A stretch of DNA of 39,638 nucleotides. Source: Oscillospiraceae bacterium (GTDB lineage Bacteria; Bacillota; Clostridia; Oscillospirales; Oscillospiraceae). Positions 10,538-25,461 of the stretch are shown piece by piece. Numbering within the stretch: position 1 is the stretch's first letter; each line of letters opens with the position of its first letter. The position numbers and the translations under genes were made by a program. The DNA is taken from NCBI GenBank assembly GCA_018053145.1, contig JAGPMA010000019.1, positions 1 through 39,638 on the forward strand, read 5' to 3'. Below the pieces are notes generated by a model. It saw only the letters and a program-made list of their open reading frames with translations. It ran no database searches and was not told the origin of the DNA.

Positions 10538-10550
10538 TATCTTTTCGTCC

Positions 10551-11732
10551 TTAGCACTTTTCGAAGATTGTGGCTACGCCCATACCTCCGCCTATGCAGA
10601 GGGTTGCAAGTCCCTTCTTTGCGTCGTCTCTTTTTTGCAGCTCGTGGAGCAGAGATACAATGATTCTTGCGCCGGAGGCCCCGACGGGATGCCCCAGAGC
10701 GATAGCTCCGCCGTTCACGTTGACCTTACTCATATCAAAATTCAGCTCACGTGCAACAGCGATAGATTGAGCGGCAAAGGCTTCGTTTGCTTCAATAAGG
10801 TCCATGTCATGGATTGAAAGCTTGGCCTTTTCAAGTGCGTTTTTGGAGGCGGGTACGGGCCCAATGCCCATAATTTTCGGGTCAACGCCACCCTGACCCC
10901 AACCGATAAGCTTTGCCATCGGCTTAAGACCATAGTTCGCAACAGCCTCGCCCGAGGCGAGAATTATTGCCGCCGCACCGTCGTTGATGCCGGAGGCGTT
11001 GCCGGCGGTCACTCTGCCGTCTGCCTTGAACGCTGGCTTGAGCTTGGCAAGACCTTCCGCGTCGGTGTTAGCCTTCGGGTATTCGTCCACGGCGAAGTCA
11101 ACTGTTTCACGCTTGACCTTTACGGGGATAGGTACAATTTCGTCTATAAATTTACCCTCAGCCTGAGCCTTTGCGGTTTTCTGCTGAGAAAAGAGTGAGA
11201 ATTGGTCAAGCTCTTCGCGGCTTATGCCCCACTGGTCACAGATGTTTTCGGCAGTTATGCCCATGTGGTAATCGTTAAATGCGTCGGTTAGTCCGTCGTT
11301 TACCATGGTGTCCACCATTTTTGCGGGGCCCATGCGTGCGCCGAAGCGTGCGGAGGGGACGGTATAGGGAGCAGCGGACATGTTTTCCGCTCCGCCGGCC
11401 ACGATTATATCCGCGTCGCCTGCCAGAATTGTGCGTGCCGCCTCGATAACGCTCTTCATGCCCGAGCCGCAGACCATGCCGACGGTGTAGGCAGGCACCT
11501 CGATGGGTATTCCGGCTTTTATTGCCGCCTGACGGGCAGGATTTTGCCCAAGACCGGCTGTGAGGATGCAGCCGAACATGACTTCGTCCACCTGCTCGGG
11601 CTTAACATTTCCGCGAGCAAGAACTTCTTTGATTACTGCTGCGCCCATGTCGACAGCGGGAATGTCCTTAAGAGCGCCTCCAAAGCTGCCGATAGCCGTA
11701 CGGCAGCAGTTAACAACGTAAATGTCTTTCAT
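10551..11732 (-). CDS. thlA: Acetyl-CoA C-acetyltransferase (thiolase)
   Basis: 393 residues, typical of clostridial biosynthetic thiolases. It condenses two acetyl-CoA to acetoacetyl-CoA or cleaves 3-ketoacyl-CoA. Catalytic residues are C88 (VCGSGMKS), H348 (GHPVGASGA) and C379 (LCIGGGMG). Cytoplasmic. GGAGG lies shortly before the ATG. It sits between the acyl-CoA dehydrogenase and the second crotonase, completing a beta-oxidation set. Direction (butyrate formation or acid breakdown) is not decided by sequence. Confidence 0.95.
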
Positions 11733-11812
11733 TGCATTTTCCTCCGATTTTACAGTTTAAATTCGAAATATAAAATTTAGCGCCCTGCTAAGCGTCCGCA
11801 GGGCGCTGCTAT

Positions 11813-12955
11813 TTACTTAAGCCCCATCCAGGAGGAGACAACCATTCGCTGGACTTCAGATGTGCCTTCGTATATCTCTGTAATTTTGGCATCACGCATC
11901 ATGCGCTCAAAGGGGTAATCACGGGTATAGCCATAGCCGCCGATAAGCTGAAGTGTACGGCAGGTAACATTGCTCGCATTCTCTGAGGCAAAGAGCTTGC
12001 CCATTGCGGCAAGGTGGTTATACGGTTCGTGATCCTGCTTTGCCTGTGCCGCGCGGTAGATAAGAAGACGTGCAGCGTCTGTCTTGGTCTGCATATCGGC
12101 AAGCTGGAACTGGGTGTTCTGGAACTGGCTGATTTTCTTGCCGAACTGAACGCGCTCGGAAACATATTTTACGCACTCGTCGATGGAGCCCTGAGCTATA
12201 CCCAGTGCCTGCGCGCCGATGCCGATACGTCCGCCGTCGAGTGTTGTCATTGCAATTTTAAAGCCCTTGCCAACCTCGCCAAGCAGATTTTCCTTGGGAA
12301 CCTTGACGTTTTCAAAAATGAGCTCATATGTAGCACTGCCGCGGATACCCATTTTCTTTTCCTTTGTTCCAAAGGTAAAGCCATCCATACCCTTTTCGAG
12401 TATAAAAGCAGAGATACCCTTGTTGCCGAGTTCCTTGTCCGTCATTGCAAAAACGATATATGTGTCGCCGTAGAAGCCGTTAGTGATAAATATCTTACTG
12501 CCGTTTATGAGAAAATAATCCCCTTTGTCTTCGGCTGTGGTTTTCTGCATAGCGGCGTCTGTGCCGGCAAGGGGCTCTGTGAGAGCAAAGGCTCCGAGCT
12601 TCTCACCGGTTGCCAGAGGAACAAGATATTTCTGCTTTTGCTCCTCGGTGCCGTATTCAAAGATTGGCCAGCAGCAAAGGGAGCTGTGACCGGAAAGCAT
12701 AACGCTCGTTGTCGCGCAATACTTTGCAATCTCCTCGCAGGCTGCGATATACGCAAGGTAGCTAAGTCCGGCTCCGCCATATTCCTCGGGGACCCAGATA
12801 CCCATCATGCCCATATCTGCAAGCTTTTTGCGAGTTTCCGCCGGAAAGCGCTCCTGCTCGTCAATTTCTGCCGCAAGCGGCTTAACTTCCTTTAGACAGA
12901 AGTCATGCAGCATGTCCAATACTTCTTTTTCTTCTGCGGAAAACTTGAAATCCAT
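11813..12955 (-). CDS. bcd: Short-chain acyl-CoA dehydrogenase (butyryl-CoA dehydrogenase type)
   Basis: 380 residues, the usual length. FAD enzyme interconverting acyl-CoA and 2-enoyl-CoA. The catalytic base is E363 in YEGTSEVQR, the short-chain position; the flavin/substrate region AFALTEPLAGTDA and the SATYELIFENVKVP segment are typical. In clostridia such enzymes work with electron-transfer flavoprotein EtfAB, often by flavin-based bifurcation, but no etf genes are in this operon or window. Its electron partner must therefore be encoded elsewhere. It lies between hbd and thlA in the same transcript. Confidence 0.93.
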   Translation of the reverse strand: MDFKFSAEEKEVLDMLHDFCLKEVKPLAAEIDEQERFPAETRKKLADMGMMGIWVPEEYGGAGLSYLAYIAACEEIAKYCATTSVMLSGHSSLCCWPIFEYGTEEQKQKYLVPLATGEKLGAFALTEPLAGTDAAMQKTTAEDKGDYFLINGSKIFITNGFYGDTYIVFAMTDKELGNKGISAFILEKGMDGFTFGTKEKKMGIRGSATYELIFENVKVPKENLLGEVGKGFKIAMTTLDGGRIGIGAQALGIAQGSIDECVKYVSERVQFGKKISQFQNTQFQLADMQTKTDAARLLIYRAAQAKQDHEPYNHLAAMGKLFASENASNVTCRTLQLIGGYGYTRDYPFERMMRDAKITEIYEGTSEVQRMVVSSWMGLK

Positions 12956-12991
12956 AATAATACCAGTCCTTTTCAGTATATTTAATGCAAG

Positions 12992-13840
12992 TTATACGGA
13001 ATAGTCATAAAAGCCTTTGCTGGTTTTTTTACCCAAAAGTCCTCCGCGAACCATTTTGCGCAGAAGGAGGGATGCGCGATATTTGTTGTCGCCGGTTTCC
13101 GAATACAGGGTATCCATAATTGACAGGCACACATCAAGACCGATGAAGTCGCCCAAGGCCAGAGGACCCATTGGGTGATTGGCACCAAGACACATGGCTG
13201 TATCAATATCTTTAGCAGAGGCAACGCCTTGCTCTACCAAGCAGGCAGCCTCGTTTATCATCGGAATGAGAAGCTTATTGACAACAAAACCCGGAGCTTC
13301 GGCAACCTCAACAGGTGTTTTGCCAAGCTTGAGCGACAGATCATATATAGTGTTGAAGGTTTCGTCGGAGGTGTTAGCACCGCGAATGACTTCGATGAGC
13401 TTCATCACTGTGGCAGGGTTAAAAAAGTGCATTCCGATAAACTTGTCCGCACGTTTTGTGGCGGAGGCGATAGCAGTAATGGAAATGGAGGAGGTGTTAG
13501 TGGCAAGAATGGTGTCCGCCTTGCACACGCTGTCCAGCTCGGCAAAAATTTGCTTTTTAATATTGAGGTTTTCTACGGCTGCTTCAACCACCAAATCTGC
13601 GTCTGCAGCATCGTTTATATCTGTAGTGAATTTAATTTTCGATAGAACGGATTTTGCGTCTTCTTCACTCATCTTACCTTTTGCGACCAGTTTGTCAAGC
13701 CCTTTGCCAAGCCTTGCTGCTGAGGCCGCAATCAGTTCGTCGCTGACATCGCGCACGACTACGTCGAAAGCATTTTTAGCAAAAACTTGAGCGATATCCA
13801 GTCCCATAGTACCGCCGCCGATTACAACAATTTTGTTCAT
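12992..13840 (-). CDS. hbd: 3-hydroxybutyryl-CoA dehydrogenase
   Basis: 282 residues, matching the clostridial Hbd length. It oxidises (S)-3-hydroxyacyl-CoA or reduces acetoacetyl-CoA with NAD(P). The N-terminal Rossmann motif is GGGTMG (8-13). Catalytic residues are S117/S118, H138 (GMHFFNPA), E150 and N188 (FVVNKLL). The C-terminal half is the helical dimerisation domain. It lies between crt and bcd with short gaps, in the standard neighbourhood for these enzymes. Confidence 0.95.
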   Translation of the reverse strand: MNKIVVIGGGTMGLDIAQVFAKNAFDVVVRDVSDELIAASAARLGKGLDKLVAKGKMSEEDAKSVLSKIKFTTDINDAADADLVVEAAVENLNIKKQIFAELDSVCKADTILATNTSSISITAIASATKRADKFIGMHFFNPATVMKLIEVIRGANTSDETFNTIYDLSLKLGKTPVEVAEAPGFVVNKLLIPMINEAACLVEQGVASAKDIDTAMCLGANHPMGPLALGDFIGLDVCLSIMDTLYSETGDNKYRASLLLRKMVRGGLLGKKTSKGFYDYSV

Positions 13841-13901
13841 AGAAATGTTCCTCTCAATAATTATTAGTTGCAGCTGCTTCGTGCGTTAGCCAAAGCGGCG
13901 C

Positions 13902-14678
13902 TTATTTTCCTAAGAATTCTTTTTCCTTCCGTTTTTCCAAAAACGCGGACATGCCCTCGTTTTTATCCTCTGTACCGCAGGTTACACCGAAAGCCTCGGC
14001 CTCGAAAGCTGAGCCGGTGTGGATGTCGGTTTGCATACCCATGCGGATACAACGCTTGGACTCGCGGACGGCAAGAGGCGCATTGGCGGCGATGCTGTTG
14101 GCAAGTGTCAACGCTGTGGTCATCAATTCTTCGGGAGGACAGACATAACTGACAAGTCCGATGGAATTCGCTTCCGCGGCGCCGATGACCTTTGCCGTCA
14201 TTATCAGCTCCATTGCCTTTGAGATGCCTACAATACGGGGCAGGCGTTGAGTTCCGCCAAAGCCCGGGGTAATGCCGAGACCGGTTTCAGGCTGGCCGAA
14301 TTTGGCGTTTTCCGAAGCCAAACGTATATCGCAGGCCATCGCAAGCTCACAGCCGCCGCCAAGTGCAAAACCGTTTACGGCCGCAATTACAGGCTTGCTC
14401 ATGTTTTCTAGCTTTAAAAGAACCTCTCCGCCTCTTACGCCAAAGGCCTTGCCTTCCGCAGCGGAAAAATTCTTCATTTCGGCAATATCAGCTCCGGCAA
14501 CAAAGGCGCGTCCCTCGCCGGTTATAATTACGGCATATGTATCGGAATCACGCTCGACATCCAAAATCGCAATTTCCAAATCGGTAAGAACCTGAGAATT
14601 CAAAGCGTTGAGCGCCTCAGGCCGACAGATTGTAAGAACAGTCACGTGTCCCAAGCGTTCGGATTTAACGAATGACAT
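13902..14678 (-). CDS. crt: Enoyl-CoA hydratase / crotonase, first copy
   Basis: 258 residues. Crotonase fold with glutamates E111 (GGGCELAMACD) and E131 (QPETGLGITPGFGG) and oxyanion segment AGADIAEM. It hydrates crotonyl-CoA or longer enoyl-CoAs to the (S)-alcohol, which feeds the Hbd encoded next. It lies directly upstream of hbd, the usual clostridial order, so it is the likelier true Crt of the two copies. Close paralogue at 9761-10537. Confidence 0.93.
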   Translation of the reverse strand: MSFVKSERLGHVTVLTICRPEALNALNSQVLTDLEIAILDVERDSDTYAVIITGEGRAFVAGADIAEMKNFSAAEGKAFGVRGGEVLLKLENMSKPVIAAVNGFALGGGCELAMACDIRLASENAKFGQPETGLGITPGFGGTQRLPRIVGISKAMELIMTAKVIGAAEANSIGLVSYVCPPEELMTTALTLANSIAANAPLAVRESKRCIRMGMQTDIHTGSAFEAEAFGVTCGTEDKNEGMSAFLEKRKEKEFLGK

Positions 14679-14744
14679 TTATATCACTTCCTAATTATAT
14701 TGTAAGAAAAAATGCTGCTAATAAAAAACTAAATGACGTCTGGC

Positions 14745-15164
14745 TTAGGCTTTTGGAGGCATTACGGTTGCAAAACCTGTAATAACCGTCTCCCCATTCT
14801 GATTGACGACAACAGTTTCAAGCTTTAGGCGGTTCTTTTCCTCAATACGTTCAACAACAGTGCAAGTCGCGGTGACAGTGTCACCAAAATAAACGGGTTT
14901 AGTAAAACGAAGCTCCTGACCCATATATATTGTTCCGGGGCCGGGAAGCTGAGTTCCCAAAACAGTGGATATAAAGCCGGCAGAGAGCATTCCGTGAGCA
15001 ATTCGCTTACCGAACATGCCGTTTTCCGCCGAAACAGCGTCTATATGTGCGGGGTTAAAGTCTCCGCTGATGCCCGCAAAAAGAACAACATCTGCCTCTG
15101 TAACGGTTTTTGTAAAGGATGCGGAGTCGCCGAGCGCGATTTGAGAAATGTTACGTCCATTCAT
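14745..15164 (-). CDS. MaoC-type (R)-specific enoyl-CoA hydratase
   Basis: 139 residues from the ATG at 15164 with AAAGG upstream. A longer frame to 15209 would begin inside the operator and is rejected. It has a single hot-dog domain with the hydratase dyad D35 and H40 in GDFNPAHID and the motif GMLSAGFISTVLGTQLPGPG. This resembles PhaJ-type enzymes giving (R)-3-hydroxyacyl-CoA, the opposite stereochemistry to the two crotonases. It is the first gene of the operon. It may let the operon handle (R)-hydroxyacyl intermediates or epimerise hydroxyacyl-CoAs in pair with a crotonase; that role is inference. Confidence 0.88.
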   Translation of the reverse strand: MNGRNISQIALGDSASFTKTVTEADVVLFAGISGDFNPAHIDAVSAENGMFGKRIAHGMLSAGFISTVLGTQLPGPGTIYMGQELRFTKPVYFGDTVTATCTVVERIEEKNRLKLETVVVNQNGETVITGFATVMPPKA

Positions 15165-15198
15165 AATTATACGACCTTTCAAAAGTAACGTTAATAAA

Positions 15199-15218
15199 AC
15201 ATGAATCATCTTTCATGT
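15199..15218. promoter_or_regulatory. Operator site 1 (predicted TetR site, beta-oxidation operon)
   Basis: ACATGAA-N6-TTCATGT with spacer TCATCT. It covers the predicted transcription start of the minus-strand operon. Fifteen bases are identical to site 2 at 15347. Confidence 0.7.
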
Positions 15219-15221
15219 CAC

Positions 15222-15250
15222 ATGATAGTATACGAAATCCTGTTTGTCAA
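15222..15250 (-). promoter_or_regulatory. Promoter of the beta-oxidation operon
   Basis: On the minus strand, TTGACA (15250-15245), 17 bases, TATCAT (15227-15222). Near-consensus sigma-A promoter; the downstream operator overlaps the start. Confidence 0.75.
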
Positions 15251-15305
15251 CAAGAATATTATCTAAAATCACGATAATATTTCCGCAAGTTTCTTAAAAT
15301 TCCTC

Positions 15306-15334
15306 TTGACAAATCAGCTGATGGTCATTATGCT
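15306..15334 (+). promoter_or_regulatory. Promoter of the KASIII/ABC transporter operon
   Basis: TTGACA (15306-15311), 17 bases, TATGCT (15329-15334). Confidence 0.7.
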
Positions 15335-15346
15335 GTGGATAAGAGG

Positions 15347-15361
15347 TGAATCATCTTTCAT
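15347..15361. promoter_or_regulatory. Operator site 2 (predicted TetR site, KASIII/ABC operon)
   Basis: TGAATCATCTTTCAT, identical over 15 bases to site 1, placed a few bases after the predicted start of the plus-strand transcript. The left arm is shorter (GTGAA rather than ATGAA). Confidence 0.65.
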
Positions 15362-15453
15362 AATTGGTTACAATACAGCCATACTAAAACTGTGCAATAT
15401 CTACAACATGAACGACAATTCATATCAATTGGAGCGGACGGAGGAAACAAATA

Positions 15454-16488
15454 ATGACACGTGAAAACAATGTTGGCATTGTTGGGCTCGGCGTTTATCT
15501 GCCGGAGAACAGAATGACAGCTAAGGAAATTGCCGAAGCCACTAAAGGAAACTGGAGCGAAGAGGCAATTATTGACAAACTTGGTATTGTAGAAAAGCGG
15601 GTTCCCGGAAACAAGGAATGCGATGGCACACAGGAGATGGGCGCTTTGGCGGCGCTTGACTGCCTGAGCAGCACCGGCGTCGACCCGATGGAGATTGACG
15701 CAATACTCTGCTTTACCGAGGAATGGAAGGAATATCCCCTTACCACTTCCGCCTGCTATATTCAAAAGCGTATCGGTGCAAAAAACGCCTGGTGCATCGA
15801 TTTGCAAAACCGTTGCTGCACCAGCGTATCGGCAATGAAAATTGCCAAGGATATTCTTTTGTCGGACGACGAATGCAACACAATTCTCGTGGCGGGCGGA
15901 TACCGCAACTGCGACCTGATTGACTTCACTGACAACGGCGTTTCCTTCATGTTCAATTTGGCGGCAGGCGGCGGCGCAATTCTCCTTCGCAAGAACTATA
16001 ACAAGAATTTGCTGCTGGGCACTCACCTTATGAGCGACGGCTCCGTGGTTCACACCTGCGGCGTAAAGGTTGGCGGCATAAACGAGCCCGTTACAGCCGA
16101 GAACATTGATGAGTTCGGCAAGCTCCGCTTGATGGACTCCGCAACAATGAAGGGACTGCTCAATACAGTTTCAATGCCGAATTGGTACAACTGCATTGAT
16201 GAAGCTCTCAGAAAATCCGGCATGACAAGAAGAGACATCGGATTTCTTGATATTCTGCACATTAAACGGTCAGGACACCTGGGGATGCTCAAGGATTTGG
16301 GACTCACCGAGGACCAGACGGTTTATCTTGAAAACTTCGGACACGTTGGACAGGTTGACCAAATTCTCTCACTTAAGCTTGCTTTGGAGCAAGGAAAGGT
16401 GAAGGATGGCACGGTAATCTCAATGATAGCTGCCGGAATCGGTTATACATGGGCAGCCAACGTTATCAGATGGGGGGATATTGTTTGA
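15454..16488 (+). CDS. KASIII-like thiolase-fold acyltransferase
   Basis: 344 residues with GGAGG upstream. Beta-ketoacyl-ACP synthase III / HMG-CoA-synthase-like fold. C121 in RCCTSVSAM occupies the nucleophile position (DLQNRC against DINAAC of FabH). H269 in ILHIKRSGH matches the catalytic His. The expected Asn of the YGNTS motif is replaced by H297 in FGHVGQ, so the triad appears to be Cys-His-His. It is therefore unlikely to be the housekeeping FabH. It is the first gene of the LIV-transporter operon and overlaps the permease start by 3 bases, which ties it to the metabolism of the imported compound, for example condensation or thioester transfer. Exact reaction unknown. Confidence 0.85.
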   Translation: MTRENNVGIVGLGVYLPENRMTAKEIAEATKGNWSEEAIIDKLGIVEKRVPGNKECDGTQEMGALAALDCLSSTGVDPMEIDAILCFTEEWKEYPLTTSACYIQKRIGAKNAWCIDLQNRCCTSVSAMKIAKDILLSDDECNTILVAGGYRNCDLIDFTDNGVSFMFNLAAGGGAILLRKNYNKNLLLGTHLMSDGSVVHTCGVKVGGINEPVTAENIDEFGKLRLMDSATMKGLLNTVSMPNWYNCIDEALRKSGMTRRDIGFLDILHIKRSGHLGMLKDLGLTEDQTVYLENFGHVGQVDQILSLKLALEQGKVKDGTVISMIAAGIGYTWAANVIRWGDIV

Positions 16489-17360
16489 GCACTTTCCTGC
16501 AGCTGTTTCTAAGAAGCTTTGAAACCGGTGCAATTTACGCACTGGCAACACTTGGCATCATCATCGTCTTCCGCACAAATTTGGTAATTAACTTTGCACA
16601 GGGCGTAATGGGAATGTTTGGCGCCTACATAGTGACAGTCATTTTCACAAAAACAGGAATGCCGCTGTTATTGGCAATTCTCTTGGGGATCATTGCCGCT
16701 ATTGGCATCGGATTTGTAGTGGATTATGTCGTTATCCGTCGCACAAAGAAGGTCGGGGGAAGCGGAAAGGAAATCATTACACTTGGAATGATGATGGTCT
16801 TTCTGGGAATCGCACCAATGGTCTTCGGTGTTGACCCTCTGCGCTTGCCAAAAATCATCGAAACTGGCGCATTTACACTGGGAAATGCGAACTTGTCTCA
16901 CAACAGTTTGTTGAACATAGTTATTGGACTTACTCTTACCATCGGGCTGTTTTTGCTGTTACAGAAAACCAAGCTGGGGCTTGCAATCCGCACTACGGCA
17001 TCAAATGAGCGGACTGCGAGGATGCTCGGCATCCCCACAAAAAAGGTTACACTTTTTGCTTGGGCTTTCGCCATGGTGCTCGGCACCTTGGCCGGCGTTC
17101 TCATTGCTCCTTCAACCTCGGTCACGGTTAATCTGATGGACAGCGTACAGGTTAACGCCTTTATCGCCTGCGTTTTGGGCGGCTTCCAGACGTTTTACGG
17201 TCCGGTTATCGGCGCTTACATCCTTGCGATAGCAAACAATCTTTTATCCTATTATGTTTCGTCAGTGTGGGGCACGCAGATACTTTATCTGCTTGTTATC
17301 ATCTTCATTGTGATTAAACCAGTTGGCTTGATAGGAAAACGAGTCATTAAAAAAGTTTAA
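16485..17360 (+). CDS. livH: Branched-chain amino acid-type ABC transporter permease LivH
   Basis: 291 residues from a TTG at 16485 that overlaps the previous stop (TTGA), with GGGGGG 7 bases upstream; ATG at 16470 is a weaker alternative. About eight membrane helices and the family motifs FRTNLVINFAQG near the N-terminus and ASNERTARMLGIP around the EAA-like loop. It forms the membrane channel with LivM. Such importers also carry short acids, amides, urea and aromatic acids, so the name does not prove the substrate. Confidence 0.92.
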   Translation: MSTFLQLFLRSFETGAIYALATLGIIIVFRTNLVINFAQGVMGMFGAYIVTVIFTKTGMPLLLAILLGIIAAIGIGFVVDYVVIRRTKKVGGSGKEIITLGMMMVFLGIAPMVFGVDPLRLPKIIETGAFTLGNANLSHNSLLNIVIGLTLTIGLFLLLQKTKLGLAIRTTASNERTARMLGIPTKKVTLFAWAFAMVLGTLAGVLIAPSTSVTVNLMDSVQVNAFIACVLGGFQTFYGPVIGAYILAIANNLLSYYVSSVWGTQILYLLVIIFIVIKPVGLIGKRVIKKV

Positions 17361-17372
17361 AGGAGCGCTGAC

Positions 17373-18398
17373 ATGAAACAAGACTCCATCATAACGAAGA
17401 TTACAAAAAACACTTATCTTCGCTTTGTACTCTTCGGACTTATTCTTTCCTTGCTCCCGGCTCTGACGGGAGGCGGCATATTAAAAACATCGTGGCTCGG
17501 CATTATAGGCGGCACAATTATCTATAGCATCGCAGCGCTGGGGCTTAACCTCTTGCTGGGATATTCGGGACTAATTTCGCTGGGTACTGCCGGCTTTATG
17601 GGACTGGGTGCCTATATCAGCGCCTATGTAACGGGCAATCTCGGTCTTCCGTGGGAGATTGGCATTCTGGCAGCCGTTATCATCCCCGTTATTCTGGGAA
17701 TACTCATAGGCCTTGCCTCACTTAGAATGGAAGGCCTGTATCTGGGCATCGTCACGCTCTGCGTTTCTGAGGTGCTGCGAAAGACCTTTGACGAGCTCGA
17801 ACCCCTCACCGGAGGCTTTTCGGGCAAAAGTGCCGAATATCCGACACTGCTGGGAATGTTCAAGCTTAATCAGAGCACGACCTTCATTCTGCTGTGCGTT
17901 GTTCTCGTTCTCGTGATGATTCTGACGTATCATCTGGCAAACGGTCAGCTTGGCCGTGCCCTCAACGCCATGCGCGGAAGCAATGTTGCGGCACAGGCAA
18001 TGGGCGTTTCACTGCTTAAATATCGGCTCATAGCTTTTGCGTTGGCAACAGGCTATGCCTCGCTCGCCGGCGCTCTCTATGCTCACTTTATAAAATTCGT
18101 ATATCCCTCCACTTGGAACCTGCCGCTATCGCTGGTTATCCTCGCAATTATAGTCATCGGAGGGCTTAGGTCAATTTACGGAACCTTTATCGGAGCAATT
18201 ATCGTATACGCCCTGCCGGATCTCGTGCTCAAGCGTATTCCCGTCATAGGCGATATCAACGGCCTGTCATACGTGTTTTCGGGAATCCTGATTATTCTGG
18301 TGGTGCTCTTCTATCCGGGCGGCTGCGTAAATGTCTTCAGTGATATTAAGCGTTTGACGCAGAAGCTTTTCAAAAGGGAGGTGAAGGAAGATGTCTGA
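17373..18398 (+). CDS. livM: Branched-chain amino acid-type ABC transporter permease LivM
   Basis: 341 residues, about nine to ten membrane segments. Motifs LGLNLLLGYSGLISLGTAGFMGLGAY and the cytoplasmic loop RGSNVAAQAMGVSLLKYR are typical of LivM. It pairs with LivH. AGGAGCG precedes the ATG. It overlaps livG by 8 bases (ATGTCTGA), pointing to translational coupling. Confidence 0.92.
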   Translation: MKQDSIITKITKNTYLRFVLFGLILSLLPALTGGGILKTSWLGIIGGTIIYSIAALGLNLLLGYSGLISLGTAGFMGLGAYISAYVTGNLGLPWEIGILAAVIIPVILGILIGLASLRMEGLYLGIVTLCVSEVLRKTFDELEPLTGGFSGKSAEYPTLLGMFKLNQSTTFILLCVVLVLVMILTYHLANGQLGRALNAMRGSNVAAQAMGVSLLKYRLIAFALATGYASLAGALYAHFIKFVYPSTWNLPLSLVILAIIVIGGLRSIYGTFIGAIIVYALPDLVLKRIPVIGDINGLSYVFSGILIILVVLFYPGGCVNVFSDIKRLTQKLFKREVKEDV

Positions 18399-19212
18399 AC
18401 AGACTGCGCTAATTCCTCAGCTAAACGAGAATGAAATCCTTCGCGTGGAAAATCTCTCAATGCGGTTTGGTGGCTTAAAGGCTGTCGATCAGCTTTCCTT
18501 TTCCATCAACGAACATGAAATATTCGGCCTTATAGGGCCAAACGGCGCCGGAAAAACAACAGTGTTTAATTGCATTACGCAGTTTTACAAGCCGACCGAA
18601 GGTCGAGTGCTTTTCATGACCAACAAAAACCAGACGGAAAATCTCGTAGGTCAGAAGGTACATGACATAATCCGAAAGGGTTTGGTACGAACCTTCCAGA
18701 ATGTGGAGCTTGTAAGCGAGCTATCATTGATTGATAACGTACTGGTTGGCGGACATATCGATTTCAAATCCGGCGGATTCTCTCAGGCACTGCGTCTGCC
18801 CAAGGCACGCCGAGAAGAGAAGACCATGCGCGAAAAAGCAGAAAGCGTTCTCGACTTCATGGGAATAGCTCATCTCAAGGATGCGCTGGCCGGCGGACAG
18901 CCCTATGGTATAAGAAAAAAGGTCGAAATGGCTCGCACGCTGATGTGCTCACCGAAGCTTATAATCTTGGACGAACCCGCGGCGGGACTCAATGACGTTG
19001 AAACACAGCAGCTGGCGGAGACTATCCGCGAGGTAAGGGACAAATATAACTGCTCTATTCTTCTGGTGGAACACGATATGCGTCTTGTTATGGATATCTG
19101 CGATAGGGTTTGCGCGATATCCTTCGGAAAGTTTTTGGCTTGCGAGACCCCAGAGGGCATCCAGAAAAATTCACTCGTTCAGGAAGCCTATCTCGGCGAA
19201 AAGGAGGAATAA
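18391..19212 (+). CDS. livG: ABC transporter ATPase LivG
   Basis: 273 residues. Walker A GPNGAGKTT (49-57), Walker B LIILDEPAAGL, switch His in LLVEHDMRLV, and a signature AGGQPYGIRKKVE, which is the LivG variant of LSGGQ. The C-terminal extension ending VQEAYLGE is characteristic of the LivG/LivF family. It powers the LivHM channel from the cytoplasm. Confidence 0.93.
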   Translation: MSEQTALIPQLNENEILRVENLSMRFGGLKAVDQLSFSINEHEIFGLIGPNGAGKTTVFNCITQFYKPTEGRVLFMTNKNQTENLVGQKVHDIIRKGLVRTFQNVELVSELSLIDNVLVGGHIDFKSGGFSQALRLPKARREEKTMREKAESVLDFMGIAHLKDALAGGQPYGIRKKVEMARTLMCSPKLIILDEPAAGLNDVETQQLAETIREVRDKYNCSILLVEHDMRLVMDICDRVCAISFGKFLACETPEGIQKNSLVQEAYLGEKEE

Positions 19213-19213
19213 A

Positions 19214-19936
19214 ATGGGTAATCAAATAGCGTTATCCATCGAAGGGCTGAAAGTCAGCTATGGCCCAATTGAAGCGCTTAAAGGCATCAATATTGAGGTG
19301 CATGAGGGCAGTGTAGTTGCTCTTCTTGGCGCAAACGGTGCCGGAAAAACCACAACGCTTCAAACCATCTCCGGTTTGGTGCATGCCGCCGAAGGAAAAA
19401 TATCCTTCTTTGGAAAGAACATTACAAACATGGAGGCGGAAGCAATAGCCTCTCTTGGAATTGCTCAATCTCCTGAAGGACGGCAGATATTTGCTGACTT
19501 GACGGTGGACGAAAACCTGAGAGCCGGAAGCTTTACCGTCAAGGATAGAAAGACTGTCGAACACTGCTATCAGCGTGTGTACAGGCACTTCCCCTTGCTC
19601 AAGGAACGCGGAAAACAGCTTGCTGGCACCCTATCCGGCGGAGAGCTGCAAATGCTCGCTATCGCCCGAGCCCTGATGTCTGACCCGAAGGTTCTTCTGC
19701 TGGACGAACCCTCCTTGGGTCTTGCACCGCTAATTGTAAAGGATATTTTTAAAATTATCGGTGAAATTAAAAAAGAGGGAACAACCGTCGTAATAGTGGA
19801 GCAAAACGCCCTCCAAACATTAAAAATCGCGGATTACGGCTATGTGCTTGATTTAGGACGCATCAATATTTCGGGTGAAGCTTCCGCTTTAATCAAGGAT
19901 GAGCGTCTAATCGAGGCCTATCTGGGAACTAAATAG
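19214..19936 (+). CDS. livF: ABC transporter ATPase LivF
   Basis: 240 residues from the ATG at 19214, behind AAGGAGGAA; an upstream frame to 19085 lies in livG and is rejected. Walker A GANGAGKTT (39-47), signature LSGGELQMLAIARAL, Walker B LLLDEPSLGLAP, switch VIVEQNALQ. Second ATPase of the importer, starting 1 base after livG ends. Confidence 0.93.
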   Translation: MGNQIALSIEGLKVSYGPIEALKGINIEVHEGSVVALLGANGAGKTTTLQTISGLVHAAEGKISFFGKNITNMEAEAIASLGIAQSPEGRQIFADLTVDENLRAGSFTVKDRKTVEHCYQRVYRHFPLLKERGKQLAGTLSGGELQMLAIARALMSDPKVLLLDEPSLGLAPLIVKDIFKIIGEIKKEGTTVVIVEQNALQTLKIADYGYVLDLGRINISGEASALIKDERLIEAYLGTK

Positions 19937-20009
19937 AAGTTCCGTTATTTAATATGTATCATGTGTGCAAACGTACATGAGAATAAAAAACAAAATGAGG
20001 AGATTGATT

Positions 20010-21290
20010 ATGAAAAAAAGACTACTCCCCCTGCTACTTGCACTTTCAATGCTTTTCGCACTCGCCGCTTGCGGCAGCAACGGAGACTCCGCAGCTTCTG
20101 CAGACCCCGCTGCTACTGATTCCACAGTCGCTTCAGCCGCTCCCGTAGATGACGGAACTCAGGGAATTACAGATACCGAAATCAAAATCGCAAACACAGC
20201 AGCAACTTCCGGAGCCTACGCTCCTGTAGGCGTTCCGTTTAACGCCGGCATTCAGGCTTATCTGGATATGGTCAACGCCGCAGGCGGAATTGACGGACGT
20301 AAGATTACCTTCGTACATAAGGACGATGAATTCGACCCCGTTAAGGGCAAGGCTTATCTTCAGGAAATGGTCGAAGACGAACAGGTCTTTGCAATTGTCG
20401 GCGACTTCGGAACACCTGTAGTTGCAGCAACAGTTGATGATTTAAAGACCTATGGCATCCCCGTTGTTTATTTTGCAACAGGAATCGGACAGCTTTATTC
20501 CGAAAAAGCAACAACCAACGATGAAGGCTACAATCTCTTCCCCGTACAGCCCATCTATGTAACCGAGGGTAAGATCATGGTTGCACGCGGCGTCGGAAGC
20601 TTTGAAGCAAAAAAAATCGGTGTCATTTACACCTCCGATGACGCAGGAAAAGATATGCTCGCCGGAATCGAAGCTCAGTGCAAAGAGCAGAGCGTAGAAT
20701 TTGTTTCCGAGCAGGTCGCTGCCGGTGCTGCGGACGTTTCTGCCGCCGTCACCTCCATCAAGAACTCCGGCGCAGATTTCGTCATCGTTGCTGCTATTCA
20801 GGCAACCATGCCGACTATCGTAAAGGAAATGGCCGCTCAGGGTATGACAGTTCCCGCTATCACCACCTATGTTAACGTTTCCCCGAAAATTTCTGAGCAG
20901 ATTGCAACTGACATCGCCGGCAAGTTCGACGTTTATGGCGACGGCTGGGTATCCTACGAGGAAGACCGCGCTGAAAATTTGGCAGAGTTCCAGAAATGGG
21001 TTGCTGCAGACTATAAGGACAATGTTTATGCACAGACCGGCTGGATTGCGGCTTCCTTCTTCTGCGAAGGCTTGACACGTGTTGCTGCAAATGGCGAAGA
21101 ACTCACATGGACCAGCTACATGAAGGCACTCGAATCCGCTCCCATCCAGAACCCCTTTGGCGGAACTCTAAACTACGCAAATGGCCAGCGTCTTGGTACA
21201 CAGGAAATGAACATGTCCAAGGTCACCGCCGACGGCAAGTGGGAATTGGTTGACGGACTTAGCAGCATAGCTGACCTTTTAGGCAAATAA
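20010..21290 (+). CDS. livK: LIV-type ABC transporter substrate-binding lipoprotein
   Basis: 426 residues from the ATG at 20010 (GAGGAG upstream). Lipoprotein signal with lipobox LAAC and Cys21, then a Ser/Ala-rich linker, then a type I periplasmic-binding-protein domain of the Leu/Ile/Val family (TDTEIKIANTAATSGAYAPVG, QEMVEDEQVFAIVGDFGTP). The ligand-contacting region differs from typical Leu-binding proteins as far as can be judged by eye. In this operon, next to CoA-transferase and beta-oxidation genes, a carboxylic acid is a reasonable ligand guess. Last gene of the operon; a GC hairpin follows. Confidence 0.9.
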   Translation: MKKRLLPLLLALSMLFALAACGSNGDSAASADPAATDSTVASAAPVDDGTQGITDTEIKIANTAATSGAYAPVGVPFNAGIQAYLDMVNAAGGIDGRKITFVHKDDEFDPVKGKAYLQEMVEDEQVFAIVGDFGTPVVAATVDDLKTYGIPVVYFATGIGQLYSEKATTNDEGYNLFPVQPIYVTEGKIMVARGVGSFEAKKIGVIYTSDDAGKDMLAGIEAQCKEQSVEFVSEQVAAGAADVSAAVTSIKNSGADFVIVAAIQATMPTIVKEMAAQGMTVPAITTYVNVSPKISEQIATDIAGKFDVYGDGWVSYEEDRAENLAEFQKWVAADYKDNVYAQTGWIAASFFCEGLTRVAANGEELTWTSYMKALESAPIQNPFGGTLNYANGQRLGTQEMNMSKVTADGKWELVDGLSSIADLLGK

Positions 21291-21316
21291 GCATTTTTCA
21301 AGCTTGAAGCACCGGT

Positions 21317-21338
21317 AAGGGGGCGTTAACGCCCCCTT
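21317..21338 (+). terminator. GC-rich hairpin after livK
   Basis: A 22-base perfect palindrome (GGGGGCG, TTAA, CGCCCCC core), 26 bases after the stop. The following TTCCTGTG is only weakly T-rich, so some read-through into the CoA-transferase gene is possible. Confidence 0.65.
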
Positions 21339-21432
21339 CCTGTGTTATAATACAATGTATACTTCACTTTGATGGATCGTTGCGCCGCGCATTTGAGCAG
21401 CTTGAAACATTTTGATTGAATTCACGAGGCCG

Positions 21433-21444
21433 ATCCTATAGGAT
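21433..21444. promoter_or_regulatory. Short palindrome before the CoA-transferase gene
   Basis: ATCCTATAGGAT, a perfect 12-base palindrome 19 bases before the ATG. It could be an operator or part of a -10 region; the shared TetR-type site is not present here. Confidence 0.3.
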
Positions 21445-21463
21445 AATGTAACGGAGGTTAATT

Positions 21464-22771
21464 ATGGATTACAGAACAAAATTAGTCGATATTGATCAGG
21501 CGTTAGCGCTTGTTAAATCAGGGGATGTGATTGTGACCGGACTGGGTGCGGCAGAGGCCGGACTGTTTATGAGCCGCCTTCACACAATTGCAGACCGGGT
21601 CAGAAACGTAACCGTTACCAACTGCCTGCCCACACATCCGTCAGAAATATATGACGAGAAATATGCGGACTCTTTTTTCGTAGACGGCTGGTTCTATTCA
21701 CCTGAATTGCGTAAGTCTCATAAAAACGGCAATATCTCTTTTATCCCCAATCATCTTCACTTATCCGCATTAAAGCGCTTGGACTATGTTCGTCCGAACA
21801 TCTTTGTCGGCGCAGCCTCAATGCCGGACAAACACGGCTTTGTTTCGCTTTCTTTATCCAACACTTATGAGCGCCGGATGTTAGACGCCGCCGATATGGT
21901 AATTCTGGAGATTAATCCGAATATGCCATACACGCTGGGGTCCTATGTTTCGGTTGATGAGGTAGACTATTTTGTGCAGGCGGACTACGCAGCTCCCACC
22001 ATTGCTGAAGCTCCTTTCAGCGAAAAGGACGTAATCATCGGCAAATACATCGCCGACATGGTTCCGGATGGGTCCTGTATCCAACTGGGTATCGGAGGAA
22101 TTCCGAACGCTGTCGCCGCCGCATTGGAAAATAAAAATGATTTGGGCGTTCACACCGAGATGCTGACCACCGGCATGATGCGCCTTGCAAACATGGGCGT
22201 TATCAACGGAAGAAGAAAGCAGGCAGAAAAAGGAACCATGGTATGCGCTTTCGCCCTGGGCAGCAAAGAACTGTATGAGTTTATAGACTACAATCCCTCT
22301 GTTGCGGTCATGGACGGAGCTTGGGCAAACGACCCCTATGTTATTGGACGCAACGACGGACAGGTATCCATCAATACCACGCTGGAAGTCGATTTAACAG
22401 GACAATGCGCCTCTGAATCTCTTGGCTCCAGACAGTTCTCCGGAACAGGCGGACAATCGGACACAGCTGTGGGAGCACAGATTTCAAAGGGCGGAAAGTC
22501 AATTATTGCCCTGTACTCCAGCGCAATGGTAAAAAACCACGAAACAGGCGAAACCCGCATGGTATCCAAAATTGTACCCCAGCTCATGGCCGGTGCGGCT
22601 GTCTCGCTCTCTCGCAATGATGTCGACCGTGTTGTAACAGAATATGGTGTTGCCGAGCTGCGCGGAACAAATATCAGGGAACGTGTCAGACGCCTGATCG
22701 ACATTGCTCATCCGGATTTCCGCGAGCAGCTTCGGGACGAGGCTGTGCGCCTCGGCATTCTCGGACGCTAG
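21464..22771 (+). CDS. Acetyl-CoA hydrolase/CoA-transferase family (butyryl/4-hydroxybutyrate-type)
   Basis: 435 residues, the normal length for 4-hydroxybutyrate or butyryl-CoA:acetate CoA-transferases. The likely catalytic glutamate is E232 in GVHTEMLTTGMM; CoA-binding segments GIGGIPNAVA (209-218) and SRQFSGTGGQSD are present. It moves CoA from acetyl-CoA or another acyl-CoA to a free acid without using ATP. Strong GGAGG. It lies between the importer and the hydrolase/TetR genes, so it probably activates the imported acid or releases the product acid. Substrate not deducible from sequence. Confidence 0.9.
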   Translation: MDYRTKLVDIDQALALVKSGDVIVTGLGAAEAGLFMSRLHTIADRVRNVTVTNCLPTHPSEIYDEKYADSFFVDGWFYSPELRKSHKNGNISFIPNHLHLSALKRLDYVRPNIFVGAASMPDKHGFVSLSLSNTYERRMLDAADMVILEINPNMPYTLGSYVSVDEVDYFVQADYAAPTIAEAPFSEKDVIIGKYIADMVPDGSCIQLGIGGIPNAVAAALENKNDLGVHTEMLTTGMMRLANMGVINGRRKQAEKGTMVCAFALGSKELYEFIDYNPSVAVMDGAWANDPYVIGRNDGQVSINTTLEVDLTGQCASESLGSRQFSGTGGQSDTAVGAQISKGGKSIIALYSSAMVKNHETGETRMVSKIVPQLMAGAAVSLSRNDVDRVVTEYGVAELRGTNIRERVRRLIDIAHPDFREQLRDEAVRLGILGR

Positions 22772-22788
22772 GAAGAAAGGTCGTAATT

Positions 22789-23604
22789 ATGGCGGATTTT
22801 GTATATGAAAACAAATCAATTCATTTTGAGGAATACGGGCAGGGCGCTCCTATTCTGGTGCTCAACGGCATAATGATGTCCTGCATGAGCTGGAAAGAGT
22901 TTGTTGATCCCTTAAAGGAAAATAATCGGCTGATTTTAATGGACTTTTTGGATCAGGGTAAATCTCAGCGCATGACGGAGCCGTATTCTCAGGCCTTACA
23001 GGTCGAAGTCGTGTATGCACTTTTAAATCACCTAAACATAGACAAGATTAATCTGGTCGGAATTTCCTACGGTGGCGAGATTGCCCTTCAGTTCGCTGTC
23101 AAATTTCCGGAGCGCTTGGAGCGGCTTGCGCTGTTTAATACCACTTCAAAAACAGGCCCGTGGCTGAGGGATATCGGTGACGCATGGAATCTGGCCGCCG
23201 CCGATGCCGATGCTTACTACCTTACAACAATCCCCGTCATTTATTCCCCCGGATTTTACCTTAAGAACAACGATTGGCTAAATCGCCGCCGCGAGCTGCT
23301 TCGCCCCATTTTCGCCAATCCGGATTTTACTTCCGCTATGGAGCGTCTGGTTAACAGCGCCGCGGAATATGATGTTTCCGCAGAAATCCACAATATAAGT
23401 GCGCCTACGCTGGTTGTTTCCTGCGAGCAGGATTATCTCACGCCGATGGAGGAACAGCGCATAATTGCATCGCTGATTCCCGATAGTCAGCGTGTGATAC
23501 TGCCGAACTGCGGCCACGCATCAATGTATGAGCAGCCGATTTTGTTCACCTCGCTTATACTTGGCTTTTTCAACAATCTTAAGATGCGTTACGGTATAGT
23601 ATAA
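22789..23604 (+). CDS. Alpha/beta hydrolase (first of two)
   Basis: 271 residues, a single alpha/beta-hydrolase domain, no signal peptide. The nucleophile is S93 in VGISYGGE; the acid is probably the Asp of CEQDYLTP and the base the His of NCGHASMYEQP, in the usual order. The oxyanion region is LNGIMMS in place of HGxxx. Cytoplasmic esterase, thioesterase or C-C hydrolase; activity unknown. It starts 17 bases after the CoA-transferase stop, so the two are co-transcribed. Confidence 0.85.
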   Translation: MADFVYENKSIHFEEYGQGAPILVLNGIMMSCMSWKEFVDPLKENNRLILMDFLDQGKSQRMTEPYSQALQVEVVYALLNHLNIDKINLVGISYGGEIALQFAVKFPERLERLALFNTTSKTGPWLRDIGDAWNLAAADADAYYLTTIPVIYSPGFYLKNNDWLNRRRELLRPIFANPDFTSAMERLVNSAAEYDVSAEIHNISAPTLVVSCEQDYLTPMEEQRIIASLIPDSQRVILPNCGHASMYEQPILFTSLILGFFNNLKMRYGIV

Positions 23605-23610
23605 AAACAC

Positions 23611-23639
23611 TTGCAAAACAAACAAGTTGCCATTATAAT
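23611..23639 (+). promoter_or_regulatory. Promoter of the TetR gene
   Basis: TTGCAA (23611-23616), 17 bases, consensus TATAAT (23634-23639). No full copy of the ATGAA-N6-TTCAT site is present; arms ATGAA and TTCAT occur 13 bases apart, so autoregulation is uncertain. Confidence 0.65.
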
Positions 23640-23692
23640 GAATACCAAACCACGTTTCATATTATTCTACAATAACGCTTAGGAGGACGAAT

Positions 23693-24400
23693 TTGGAATC
23701 TCTTGTCAACAAACCACGTACTCAGCGAGGACGCACAACCTTGAATAACATCCTCAGCGCCGCAGCACAGGTGTTTTATGAGAAGGGATATCATGACGCT
23801 TCCATTAATGACATCACCCGCTTGGCAGGGGTCGCATCCGGAACATTTTATGTCTATTTCGATGGCAAATACAATTTATACAAATATCTTCTGCTGCAAT
23901 GCAGCCACATCATCCGTAAGCATCTGAGCCTTTCAGTCAAAGACTGCAAAACCCGCCGAGAGGTTGAACGGGTTGGTATGAAGGCTTGGCTGGAGTTTGC
24001 GCTCGAAAACCAATATATGTACAACATCATATGGGAATCTCTTTATGTTGACCGAGAACTGTTTGTTGACTATTATCAAACCTTCAGCAGAGAGTACATT
24101 AAAGGACTGGAAGCTGCGAAACTCACCGATGAAATCATCGATATAGACAGCGAGGTTTTGTCATACATTCTTATGGGTGCTTCGAACTTTCTGGGACTTA
24201 ATTGGTGTGTGTTTAAAGAAGACCCGGAGGCAATAGACCACGTTGTGGATGACTTTATGAAGATTCTAGACGGGGGTATTTTTTCAAAGGATTTCAAGGC
24301 TGAACCGGCTCCGATTGAGCACAAACCCACCGAAGTAAAGCAAAGATTTCGTTTTCAGGTTGTGATGGATGACGATGCGGCTGAAAAAGAACCTGAATAA
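23693..24400 (+). CDS. TetR/AcrR-family transcriptional regulator
   Basis: 235 residues, starting at TTG with AGGAGG 7 bases upstream. The N-terminal helix-turn-helix is clear (SINDITRLAGVASGTFYVYF, 37-56), followed by a helical ligand-binding domain and a charged C-terminal tail. TetR proteins of this type often sense acyl-CoAs (FadR/YsiA/PaaR-like). Its place among CoA-transferase, importer and hydrolase genes, and the three similar inverted repeats at nearby promoters, make it the candidate repressor of the whole region. The ligand is unknown. Confidence 0.9.
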   Translation: MESLVNKPRTQRGRTTLNNILSAAAQVFYEKGYHDASINDITRLAGVASGTFYVYFDGKYNLYKYLLLQCSHIIRKHLSLSVKDCKTRREVERVGMKAWLEFALENQYMYNIIWESLYVDRELFVDYYQTFSREYIKGLEAAKLTDEIIDIDSEVLSYILMGASNFLGLNWCVFKEDPEAIDHVVDDFMKILDGGIFSKDFKAEPAPIEHKPTEVKQRFRFQVVMDDDAAEKEPE

Positions 24401-24402
24401 AT

Positions 24403-24443
24403 AAAACAACCTGCCTGCAACTTAATTGCAGGCAGGTTGTTTT
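24403..24443. terminator. Bidirectional intrinsic terminator
   Basis: A perfect 18-base stem (24403-24420 with 24426-24443), 5-base loop, A-rich on one side and TTTTATTTT on the other. It serves the convergent TetR (+) and hydrolase (-) genes. Confidence 0.92.
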
Positions 24444-24483
24444 ATTTTAAGTCAAAGGAATAAAATCCAAAAACGCTAATTAG

Positions 24484-25374
24484 TTATGCGTAATGCCGGA
24501 CCAAATCTGTCAGGGCCGATAAATCATCGGTAATGATACTGTGGCTCAAACCGGCAAGAATATGCAGCTGTGCCTGCTCGCCAAAAAACTCTTTGGTTTT
24601 TCGCGCCTCGTCAATGGGGACGACCATATCCGCTTCACCGTGGATGATGGCTACTGGGCATTTTACGCTGCTTGCTCTTCCGTTGCCTGCGCACACCAGA
24701 TTCGACGTTTCAGATATGTTGAAGTGCACAAGGCTGTAGTCAACATCAACCAAATTACGCTGTTTTAAAATGGCTTCAAGATATAGCTCGTAATCCTCCG
24801 CAGGCGGCTGATTATTATGATATATAACCAAATTCCAGAGATAGCGGAAAAATTCCTTGTCATTGGAGTCATACGCACGCAGAGCCGGTGCAACCTGAAC
24901 GGGGTCGGCGGCAATTTCGTCCTTATTCAAAAGACAGTCACCAATAATCATTGCTCCGGACGAATCCTTGCGGAACATGGTATAACCCTGAATACCAACC
25001 GAACTAAGCAGAATAATTCCACGTACCTCGCTGCCGAGATCGGCAGCGATTTCCATTGCAATACCGCCGCCTGTGGACCAGCCCAAAATAACGGGCTTAC
25101 TAATGCCTTGAAGAGAAATGAATTCCTTAATATCGTCTGCGAGCTCATGCAGTGAATCGAAGCCATGATTAAAGCTGCTGTCACCAAAGCCTCGCAAATC
25201 CACTGCGTAAATGGTGAAATCCTTCTCAAGCTTTTCCATCAGCGTCTGATAATGCACGGAGCTGCTCATGTTTCCGTGAAGAAGCAGCAGAACCTTGTCC
25301 CCAACTCCGCATTTTCTGTATGCCAGAGTTTCTCCGCCGGAAATTGACTGGAATAGAATCGGATACTGTTTCAC
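24484..25374 (-). CDS. Alpha/beta hydrolase (second of two)
   Basis: 296 residues. HGNMSSS (33-39) is the oxyanion motif, S100 in LGWSTGGG the nucleophile, Asp in IHGEADMVVP the acid and His in AGLSHSI the base. Typical alpha/beta hydrolase with a cap around residues 130-210; cytoplasmic. AGGAGGA precedes the ATG. It is transcribed on its own, convergent with TetR, from a promoter carrying the same operator type as the beta-oxidation and transporter operons, so it probably belongs to the same regulon. It might hydrolyse an ester, lactone or thioester of the pathway substrate. Not a close copy of the first hydrolase. Confidence 0.88.
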   Translation of the reverse strand: MKQYPILFQSISGGETLAYRKCGVGDKVLLLLHGNMSSSVHYQTLMEKLEKDFTIYAVDLRGFGDSSFNHGFDSLHELADDIKEFISLQGISKPVILGWSTGGGIAMEIAADLGSEVRGIILLSSVGIQGYTMFRKDSSGAMIIGDCLLNKDEIAADPVQVAPALRAYDSNDKEFFRYLWNLVIYHNNQPPAEDYELYLEAILKQRNLVDVDYSLVHFNISETSNLVCAGNGRASSVKCPVAIIHGEADMVVPIDEARKTKEFFGEQAQLHILAGLSHSIITDDLSALTDLVRHYA

Positions 25375-25412
25375 AATTATTCCTCCTAATGAAGCGATAG
25401 TGTTAAATCAAT

Positions 25413-25428
25413 ATGAAGCATCGTTCAT
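25413..25428. promoter_or_regulatory. Operator site 3 (predicted TetR site, hydrolase gene)
   Basis: ATGAAGCATCGTTCAT: same arms, 6-base spacing and CATC core as sites 1 and 2, with two G for T changes. It covers the predicted start of the minus-strand transcript. Confidence 0.7.
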
Positions 25429-25432
25429 GTTT

Positions 25433-25461
25433 ATAATATATTTGTTTTTTATATTTGTCAA
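25433..25461 (-). promoter_or_regulatory. Promoter of the second hydrolase gene
   Basis: Minus strand TTGACA (25461-25456), 17 bases, TATTAT (25438-25433). Confidence 0.72.

Follow-up and report, generated by a model that had tools for sequence, protein, structure and literature searches.

In this study, we analyzed a stretch of 39,638 nucleotides from an Oscillospiraceae bacterium (GenBank assembly GCA_018053145.1, contig JAGPMA010000019.1; hereafter the window), in which three inverted repeats of common design lie at three promoters. These promoters precede a beta-oxidation operon, an operon for a KASIII-type synthase and a LIV-type ATP-binding cassette (ABC) importer, and an alpha/beta hydrolase gene. 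The TetR-family gene at 23693 very probably encodes a FadR-type repressor of the three promoters that is released by an acyl-coenzyme A (acyl-CoA); we infer binding, repression and ligand from the sequence and put the probability of this reading at about 85%. It is supported by four findings that agree: the strict motif is specific genome-wide, the sites stand at three promoters, orthologous loci have them too, and the regulator is of the FadR type and keeps the arginines that contact CoA. Thereby, an operator code and a regulator identity are provided for a catabolic cluster recurrent in Bacillota, and bacterial relatives for an acyl-CoA repressor described from archaea.

Proposed operators and promoters in the window and the genome

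The three inverted repeats claimed in the original prediction were all found in the window, together with a fourth site which it had overlooked. The sites and their promoters are as follows:

15201-15216, minus strand: operator 1, ATGAATCATCTTTCAT on the plus strand and ATGAAAGATGATTCAT on the minus strand, at the promoter of the MaoC/ECH/HBD/ACAD/thiolase/ECH operon
15222-15250, minus strand: promoter of this beta-oxidation operon, TTGACA-N17-TATCAT, with hexamers identical in the sister species
15306-15334, plus strand: promoter of the KASIII/LIV operon, TTGACA-N17-TATGCT
15346-15361, plus strand: operator 2, GTGAATCATCTTTCAT, at the KASIII/LIV operon promoter
15408-15423, plus strand: fourth site, operator-like and auxiliary, ATGAACGACAATTCAT, within the leader of KASIII and 62 bases past operator 2
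25413-25428, minus strand: operator 3, ATGAAGCATCGTTCAT, equal to ATGAACGATGCTTCAT on the minus strand, at the promoter of the second alpha/beta hydrolase gene
25433-25461, minus strand: promoter of the second alpha/beta hydrolase gene, TTGACA-N17-TATTAT

Operators 1 and 2 share 15 identical bases, as had been claimed, and the arms of operator 1 lengthen to ACATGAA/TTCATGT (15199-15218). The window contains three mismatch-free copies of TTGACA-N17-TATNNT, at the same three promoters that had been named before. Each repeat had been placed at or just after the predicted start of such a promoter, and this agrees with the sequence: the sites follow the -10 box by 5 (operator 1), 11 (operator 2) and 4 bases (operator 3), so that a bound dimer would cover or adjoin the transcription start. 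The MaoC open reading frame as listed (from 15209) starts inside operator 1. The likelier start is the ATG at 15164 behind a GAAAGG stretch, and operator 1 would therefore fall in the leader.

Taken by itself, the window shows the repeats as only mildly unusual, and the counts were therefore extended to the whole genome of 2,250,517 bases (106 contigs). In the window, ATGAA-N6-TTCAT with at most one mismatch was observed five times versus 2.4 expected, and 9 of 100 shuffles were equally good, which is weak evidence. In the genome, RTGAANCATCNTTCAT has three matches, all of them in the window, and the reversed control has none. Of the five places with ATGAA-N6-TTCAT, three lie in the window (control 0), and the composite pattern of TTGACA-N17-TANNNT followed within 16 bases by NTGAA-N6-TTCAN is present at three places, again all in the window (control 0). 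The motif is thus not equally common elsewhere in the genome. Chance, i.e. three A/T-rich repeats near promoters picked from many, would fit the unremarkable count in the window, but it is hardly credible given these whole-genome counts including the composite pattern, the promoter geometry and the conservation across species described below.

Looser patterns were less specific. TGAA-N6-TTCA occurs at 73 places in the genome versus 36 for the control; being so common, it is no evidence by itself and was dropped as a scan pattern. Also, RTGAANCATCNTTCAT with up to two mismatches gave 30 rows on both strands versus 9 for the control, and two-mismatch sites therefore count for little. Only two one-mismatch sites of RTGAANCATCNTTCAT were found outside the window. 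One of them, before spoIVA (L020, G000:C39:47681-47696), lies at a gene start and was taken as chance because the stretch inspected has no TTGACA promoter at the usual distance and a sporulation gene is unfitting; the other (L019) lies in a long frame. The copies of ATGAA-N6-TTCAT outside the window lie inside a long frame (L085) and at the end of one (L084). A match inside the CoA-transferase gene (22005-22020; 12.5 bits with the matrix introduced below) was not counted either. As a side observation, spoIVA means that the organism carries a sporulation gene. A class-wide scan for the CATC core gave no match in 390 other genomes; it serves as a specificity control and not as a survey, as its one-sided pattern recovers only one of the three window sites and only one of the 390 genomes has a related TetR gene.

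The repeats adjoin the transcript start and might act in the RNA as leader hairpins instead of DNA operators; site 1 indeed forms a hairpin of 7 pairs (-5.3 kcal/mol). However, sites 3 and 4 and the site of the related locus L141 (see below) reach only -1.5 to -1.7 kcal/mol, site 2 folds best otherwise, and what is conserved at the divergent promoters is a single, near-palindromic sequence. A role as hairpins is thus very improbable.

Conservation and reach of the proposed operator

Five related loci carry TetR proteins with 88% (L044, a sister species of the same genus), 68% (L045), 66% (L046), 68% (L047) and 64% (L048) identity to the window protein. The order KASIII, LivH, LivM, LivG, LivF, LivK, CoA-transferase, (hydrolase), TetR is retained in four of them, with one additional hydrolase in L045 and no hydrolase at this place in L047 and L048, while L046 begins within LivF at a contig end. 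The sister genome also holds all six beta-oxidation genes in identical order. Comparison of these loci revealed that the sites are kept at the same promoter positions in the sister species and in the more distant relatives. Counterparts of operator 1 precede MaoC in L044 (L044:1385, ATGAATCATCCTTCAT) and L045 (L045:671), counterparts of operator 2 precede KASIII in four loci (L044:1530, L045:809, L047:2251 and L048:2169), and operator 3 corresponds to ATGAATCTATCTTCAT at L044:11770. Between window and sister species, 29 of 32 bases agree in operators 1 and 2 and 24 of 24 in the -35/-10 hexamers, compared with 132 of 220 in the remaining intergenic region, and in both species the two operators are 145 bases apart. 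In the window, L044, L045, L047 and L048, each of the 10 promoter sites follows its -10 box by 4-11 bases, a count that omits site four and its counterpart.

The original prediction had also included a shared CATC core, which turned out not to be invariant. The fourth site has perfect arms, and at the equivalent place the sister species carries ATGAAGTCAAATTCAT, with 10 of 10 arm bases but only 2 of 6 core bases identical. Since the arms are kept here while the core has diverged, CATC is not essential, and the sister's hydrolase site ATGAATCTATCTTCAT agrees with this. Judged by these sequences, the conserved part of the operator is the arms rather than the CATC core. The 62-base distance between operator 2 and the fourth site is the same in the window and the sister species; with such a fixed distance, the pair of sites before KASIII could cooperate or form a loop.

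A matrix was built from the 10 promoter sites (the two L045 sites are identical), leaving out site four, its counterpart and a repeat before tetR in L047. Its consensus ATGAATCATGATTCAT is a perfect palindrome. With this matrix, the three reported window sites score 20.7-22.6 bits and site four 16.1. Afterwards, the surroundings of KASIII-family genes in 37 other genomes of the phylum were scanned, 40 regions in all, which cover 42 of the 43 matches outside the own genome. In the held-out locus L141 (TetR 42% identical), the matrix detected ATGAAACATGATTCAT with 22.9 bits versus a maximum of 18.0 over 200 simulated copies; the site lies 4 bases past the -10 box of a TTGACA-N18-TATAAT promoter directed away from tetR. 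The 24 KASIII regions without a similar TetR gene, with L152 counted among them since only its helix-turn-helix matches, do not exceed 15.4 bits, and the top one (L147) lies inside a LivF gene. In L164 and L165 (TetR 35-36%), GTGAATCATGTGTCAC was found at the tetR start with 13.1 bits.

The genome contains at least four further, weakly related TetR genes, and another regulator encoded elsewhere might bind the sites, the neighbouring TetR gene being coincidental. Against this, site and window-type TetR gene occur together in the window, L044, L045, L047, L048 and L141, whereas no site above that 15.4-bit limit exists in the 24 regions lacking the gene; the strict motif is also confined to the window. 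Control by another regulator is therefore improbable.

A local regulon had been proposed. This stands for the strict motif, which in the genome occurs only in the window, but the regulon is probably not strictly local, since an unlinked hydrolase gene has operator-like promoter sites. A looser composite pattern gave 8 matches in the genomes of six relatives (control 0), 5 in the cluster and 3 elsewhere. Two of these three (G446:C221 and G027:C83) seem unrelated and were set aside with 8.9 and 0.6 bits. The third (G007:C17, locus L096, in the sister species) precedes an alpha/beta hydrolase gene whose product is 32% identical to the first hydrolase of the window. It has two sites with perfect arms, ATGAACTATAATTCAT (15.4 bits) and ATGAATACTGATTCAT (14.7 bits), the latter 15 bases past the -10 box of TTGACA-N17-TAGAAT. 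The genome of the window carries a 77% identical hydrolase gene (G000:C95:8432-9238, L173), and upstream of it TTGACA-N17-TAAACT is followed 14 bases on by TTGAATCATGAATCAT, which departs from the consensus in 2 of its 16 bases. The upstream regions of L173 and L096 are otherwise poorly alike. This target was spotted after the fact, and its own-genome score of 11.9 bits is not significant alone; it is proposed because place and kind of gene agree in both species, which makes the hydrolase gene a rather probable further member of the regulon.

The TetR regulator and its probable ligand

The regulator gene and its possible promoter are located as follows:

23693-24400, plus strand: TetR-family regulator of the Sulfolobus-FadR type, 235 amino acids, TTG start
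23611-23639, plus strand: possible own promoter of tetR, TTGCAA-N17-TATAAT, with a similar stretch in L044

The protein has a TetR_N helix-turn-helix domain (PF00440, 53.6 bits versus a cut-off of 24), and among the curated NCBIfam models no cut-off was reached. By sequence, its best solved relative is FadR of Sulfolobus acidocaldarius (Saci_1107; PDB 5MWR, 6EN8, 6EL2) with a phmmer E-value of 2.6e-31 (next 6.9e-9); the profile search gave 7e-39 (next 7.4e-12), and Foldseek with the predicted fold placed the Sulfolobus FadR structures at ranks 1-6. Both proteins align without gaps with 59 of 170 residues identical. According to PMC6449355, the archaeal FadR has four genomic sites with a 16-bp dyad motif, from which it represses a lipase and beta-oxidation cluster of 30 kb, and it dissociates from DNA upon acyl-CoA binding; R73 and R86 matter for the acyl-CoA response and G48 for DNA binding.

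The window protein has R75 and R88 at the positions of R73 and R86. For the family comparison, 24 proteins including that of the window were used (L152, with only the helix-turn-helix matched, was dropped), and TetR proteins of related genomes served as controls (27 loci, of which 3 had no usable frame, leaving 24). The equivalent of R73 is present in 24 of 24 and that of R86 in 23 of 24 family members, each compared with 0 of 24 controls, a count biased low by the uncertain C-terminal alignment of these very distant proteins. Scoring the Sulfolobus chain against both sets, 23 of 24 relatives beat every control, and L157 falls below one (L073). Gly50, equivalent to Gly48, is present in the window protein but also in 23 of 24 controls, so it is not diagnostic. 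The invariant G of the operator is preceded by T or C in all 10 training sites, and by analogy Gly50 may act on this YpG step like the archaeal Gly48. We regard the window TetR as a bacterial member of the Sulfolobus-FadR type, whose DNA binding would be released by acyl-CoA.

Common to both systems are the TetR fold, the residues R73, R86, G48, Y51 and Y53, and, according to PMC6449355, a small number of sites in the genome, a 16-bp dyad and the position of the repressor gene within a single local cluster of beta-oxidation and hydrolase genes. In contrast, the window TetR is bacterial, and Y47, L49, F52 and M101 are replaced. Its sites lie at the transcription start, whereas the archaeal ones, with the exception of the autoregulatory site, are located at least 130 bp upstream (PMC6449355), and the window tetR promoter lacks an autoregulatory site; an ATGAA-N13-TTCAT repeat at this promoter was rejected since its spacing is wrong. 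The main text of PMC6449355 contains no operator letters such as TGAA, TTCA, TTGA, TCAA or TGAC. Bacillus FadR (NF053878; PDB 3WHB, 5GP9) shares the TetR family, fatty-acid regulation and an acyl-CoA ligand, in line with the PDB titles, but the window TetR scores only 42.4 versus a cut-off of 200 with this profile, with just residues 18-68 aligned, and the PDB match is much weaker (2.6e-7). Mycobacterium FasR (NF053731; PDB 6O6N) shares the TetR fold and a long acyl-CoA ligand; here, the score is 46.6 versus a cut-off of 330, and unlike the proposed repressor, FasR is an activator regulating lipid biosynthesis, according to PMC7382501.

Several results weigh against a TetR-controlled, acyl-CoA-released regulon. 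On the side of the sites, the sister's hydrolase site ATGAATCTATCTTCAT scores 13.7 bits, under the best control region, and three matches to the looser composite pattern fall outside the cluster. L167 (TetR 45%) has only a weak site, ATGAGACATGGTTCAG, 6 bases past a -10 box; its 12.8 bits were reached in 31 of 200 simulated copies and are not significant by score. Loci with a TetR only 22-40% identical mostly have no convincing site by the matrix, with best values of 11.8 (L134), 9.9 (L139), 8.8 (L151), 11.1 (L157), 11.6 (L160/L162) and 10.3 bits (L166), and the scan of L154, L158, L159, L161, L163, L088 and L091 gave no site above 8.5 bits. In L053/L091 (TetR 39%), the spacer has 5 bases rather than 6. 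At the possible own promoter of tetR, no operator of the right spacing was found. On the side of the protein, the fold model is of medium quality (pLDDT 69, pTM 0.66), the arginine counts of the controls carry the alignment bias mentioned, and M101 is not kept: the window protein has Ala103, and the remaining 23 relatives have one of A, T, V, I, L and C. M101 was taken as an allosteric detail of one protein and not as defining for the type. As M101 and several residues of the acyl pocket, F68 among them, are unconserved, the ligand may differ.

The sites could thus be operators of the window TetR with a different inducer, such as a pathway-specific CoA ester or free acid, e.g. a 3-oxo- or hydroxyacyl derivative on which the KASIII enzyme acts. 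This would fit the acyl pocket, in which F68, M101 and F111 of Sulfolobus FadR are C, A and I in the window protein, and it would account for the KASIII enzyme, the LIV-type importer and the hydrolases, which in our judgement no ordinary fatty-acid pathway needs. On the other hand, an aromatic residue is kept at the positions of F97 and F126 (24 of 24 relatives), and the CoA-contacting arginines are kept, which makes some CoA ester likely. We consider such a special inducer rather unlikely. With the window TetR as an acyl-CoA-released repressor, the inducer would name the substrate class of the module described below.

Proposed target genes and switch, and the KASIII/LIV module

The genes that the proposed operators would control are listed in the following:

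9761-15209, minus strand: target operon 1, MaoC-type hydratase, enoyl-CoA hydratase, 3-hydroxybutyryl-CoA dehydrogenase, acyl-CoA dehydrogenase, thiolase, enoyl-CoA hydratase
15454-21290, plus strand: target operon 2, KASIII-type synthase and LIV-type ABC transporter (two permeases, two ATPases, binding protein)
21464-23604, plus strand: CoA-transferase (4-hydroxybutyrate/butyryl-CoA:acetate type) and first alpha/beta hydrolase, with no operator of their own
24484-25374, minus strand: target gene 3, second alpha/beta hydrolase, which passes the NF050089 cut-off (intracellular short-chain polyhydroxyalkanoate depolymerase)

In the proposed mechanism, a TetR dimer would bind the 16-base palindrome ATGAATCATGATTCAT, for which the TGAA/TTCA arms would be most important. 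Without substrate, dimers at the start sites of the three strong promoters would block initiation by RNA polymerase, thereby repressing the beta-oxidation operon, the KASIII/LIV/CoA-transferase/hydrolase/tetR operon and the second hydrolase gene, and probably, more weakly, the unlinked hydrolase gene. An imported acid would be activated to its acyl-CoA by the CoA-transferase; this acyl-CoA would bind the C-terminal domain via R75 and R88 and release the repressor, so that import, activation and beta-oxidation would rise together.

The start of the CoA-transferase gene has no site, as had been noted before, and this gene and the first hydrolase gene are presumably expressed by read-through from operon 2. 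The tetR gene seems to be transcribed from its own promoter and by read-through. Partial self-regulation of the switch is probable, since tetR is the last gene of the row headed by KASIII, whose leader carries two sites. Read-through to the CoA-transferase gene and tetR is inferred, as is the unlinked target. Two hairpins were observed in this part of the window. The one between the LivK and CoA-transferase genes (21317-21338) is G+C-rich, has 9 pairs and a weak T tract, and may lower distal expression; the other (24402-24444), where tetR and the second hydrolase gene converge, is strong, terminator-like and 20 pairs long.

The KASIII-type enzyme (15454-16488) belongs to NF005308 (450 bits versus a cut-off of 315). 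Its catalytic Cys is kept and a His is kept one alignment column off, and the position of the FabH Asn is His in 47 of 51 aligned KASIII copies, including that of the window. The active site of KAS I/II enzymes is Cys-His-His; with such a set, the enzyme may not be an ordinary KASIII. The CoA-transferase is closest to solved 4-hydroxybutyrate CoA-transferases. The KASIII family was detected in 38 of 398 sampled genomes of the phylum, the own one included. Among the 40 regions (L130-L169), 33 have a match to a LIV-type permease and 28 to a CoA-transferase; 14 have a TetR match with an E-value of 1e-30 or better, and three more have a weaker one (L157, L158 and L152). KASIII, LIV-type importer, CoA-transferase and alpha/beta hydrolase recur together in sampled Bacillota, with or without a Sulfolobus-FadR-like regulator. 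In the open-licence literature, judged from listings, neither a description of this cluster or its regulator in Bacillota nor an assigned substrate was found.

A TetR repressor, an acyl-CoA and a fatty-acid regulon follow a known principle; new, as far as literature searches go, are a branch of the Sulfolobus-FadR type in bacteria, the operator code of this branch and its link to the KASIII/LIV module. We tentatively suggest that repressors of this type form one family of archaea and Bacillota and in the latter control a recurrent import-and-activation module (Cys-His-His KASIII, LIV-type ABC importer, CoA-transferase, alpha/beta hydrolases) whose acyl substrate would be unusual, e.g. a 3-oxo acid or a hydroxyacyl oligomer. 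PMC6449355 holds the view that archaeal FadR shares no ancestry with bacterial FadR regulators. If there is one such family, this view would have to be qualified, and the true bacterial relatives would be the repressors described here, not Bacillus FadR.

Elsewhere in the genome, a second acyl-CoA dehydrogenase gene (G000:C8:2936-4054, 41% identical) was found, and the local set is therefore not the sole one. Beyond the target genes, positions 7346-8281 of the window encode a DUF5692 protein (457 bits) beside a gene for a zinc-uptake binding protein.

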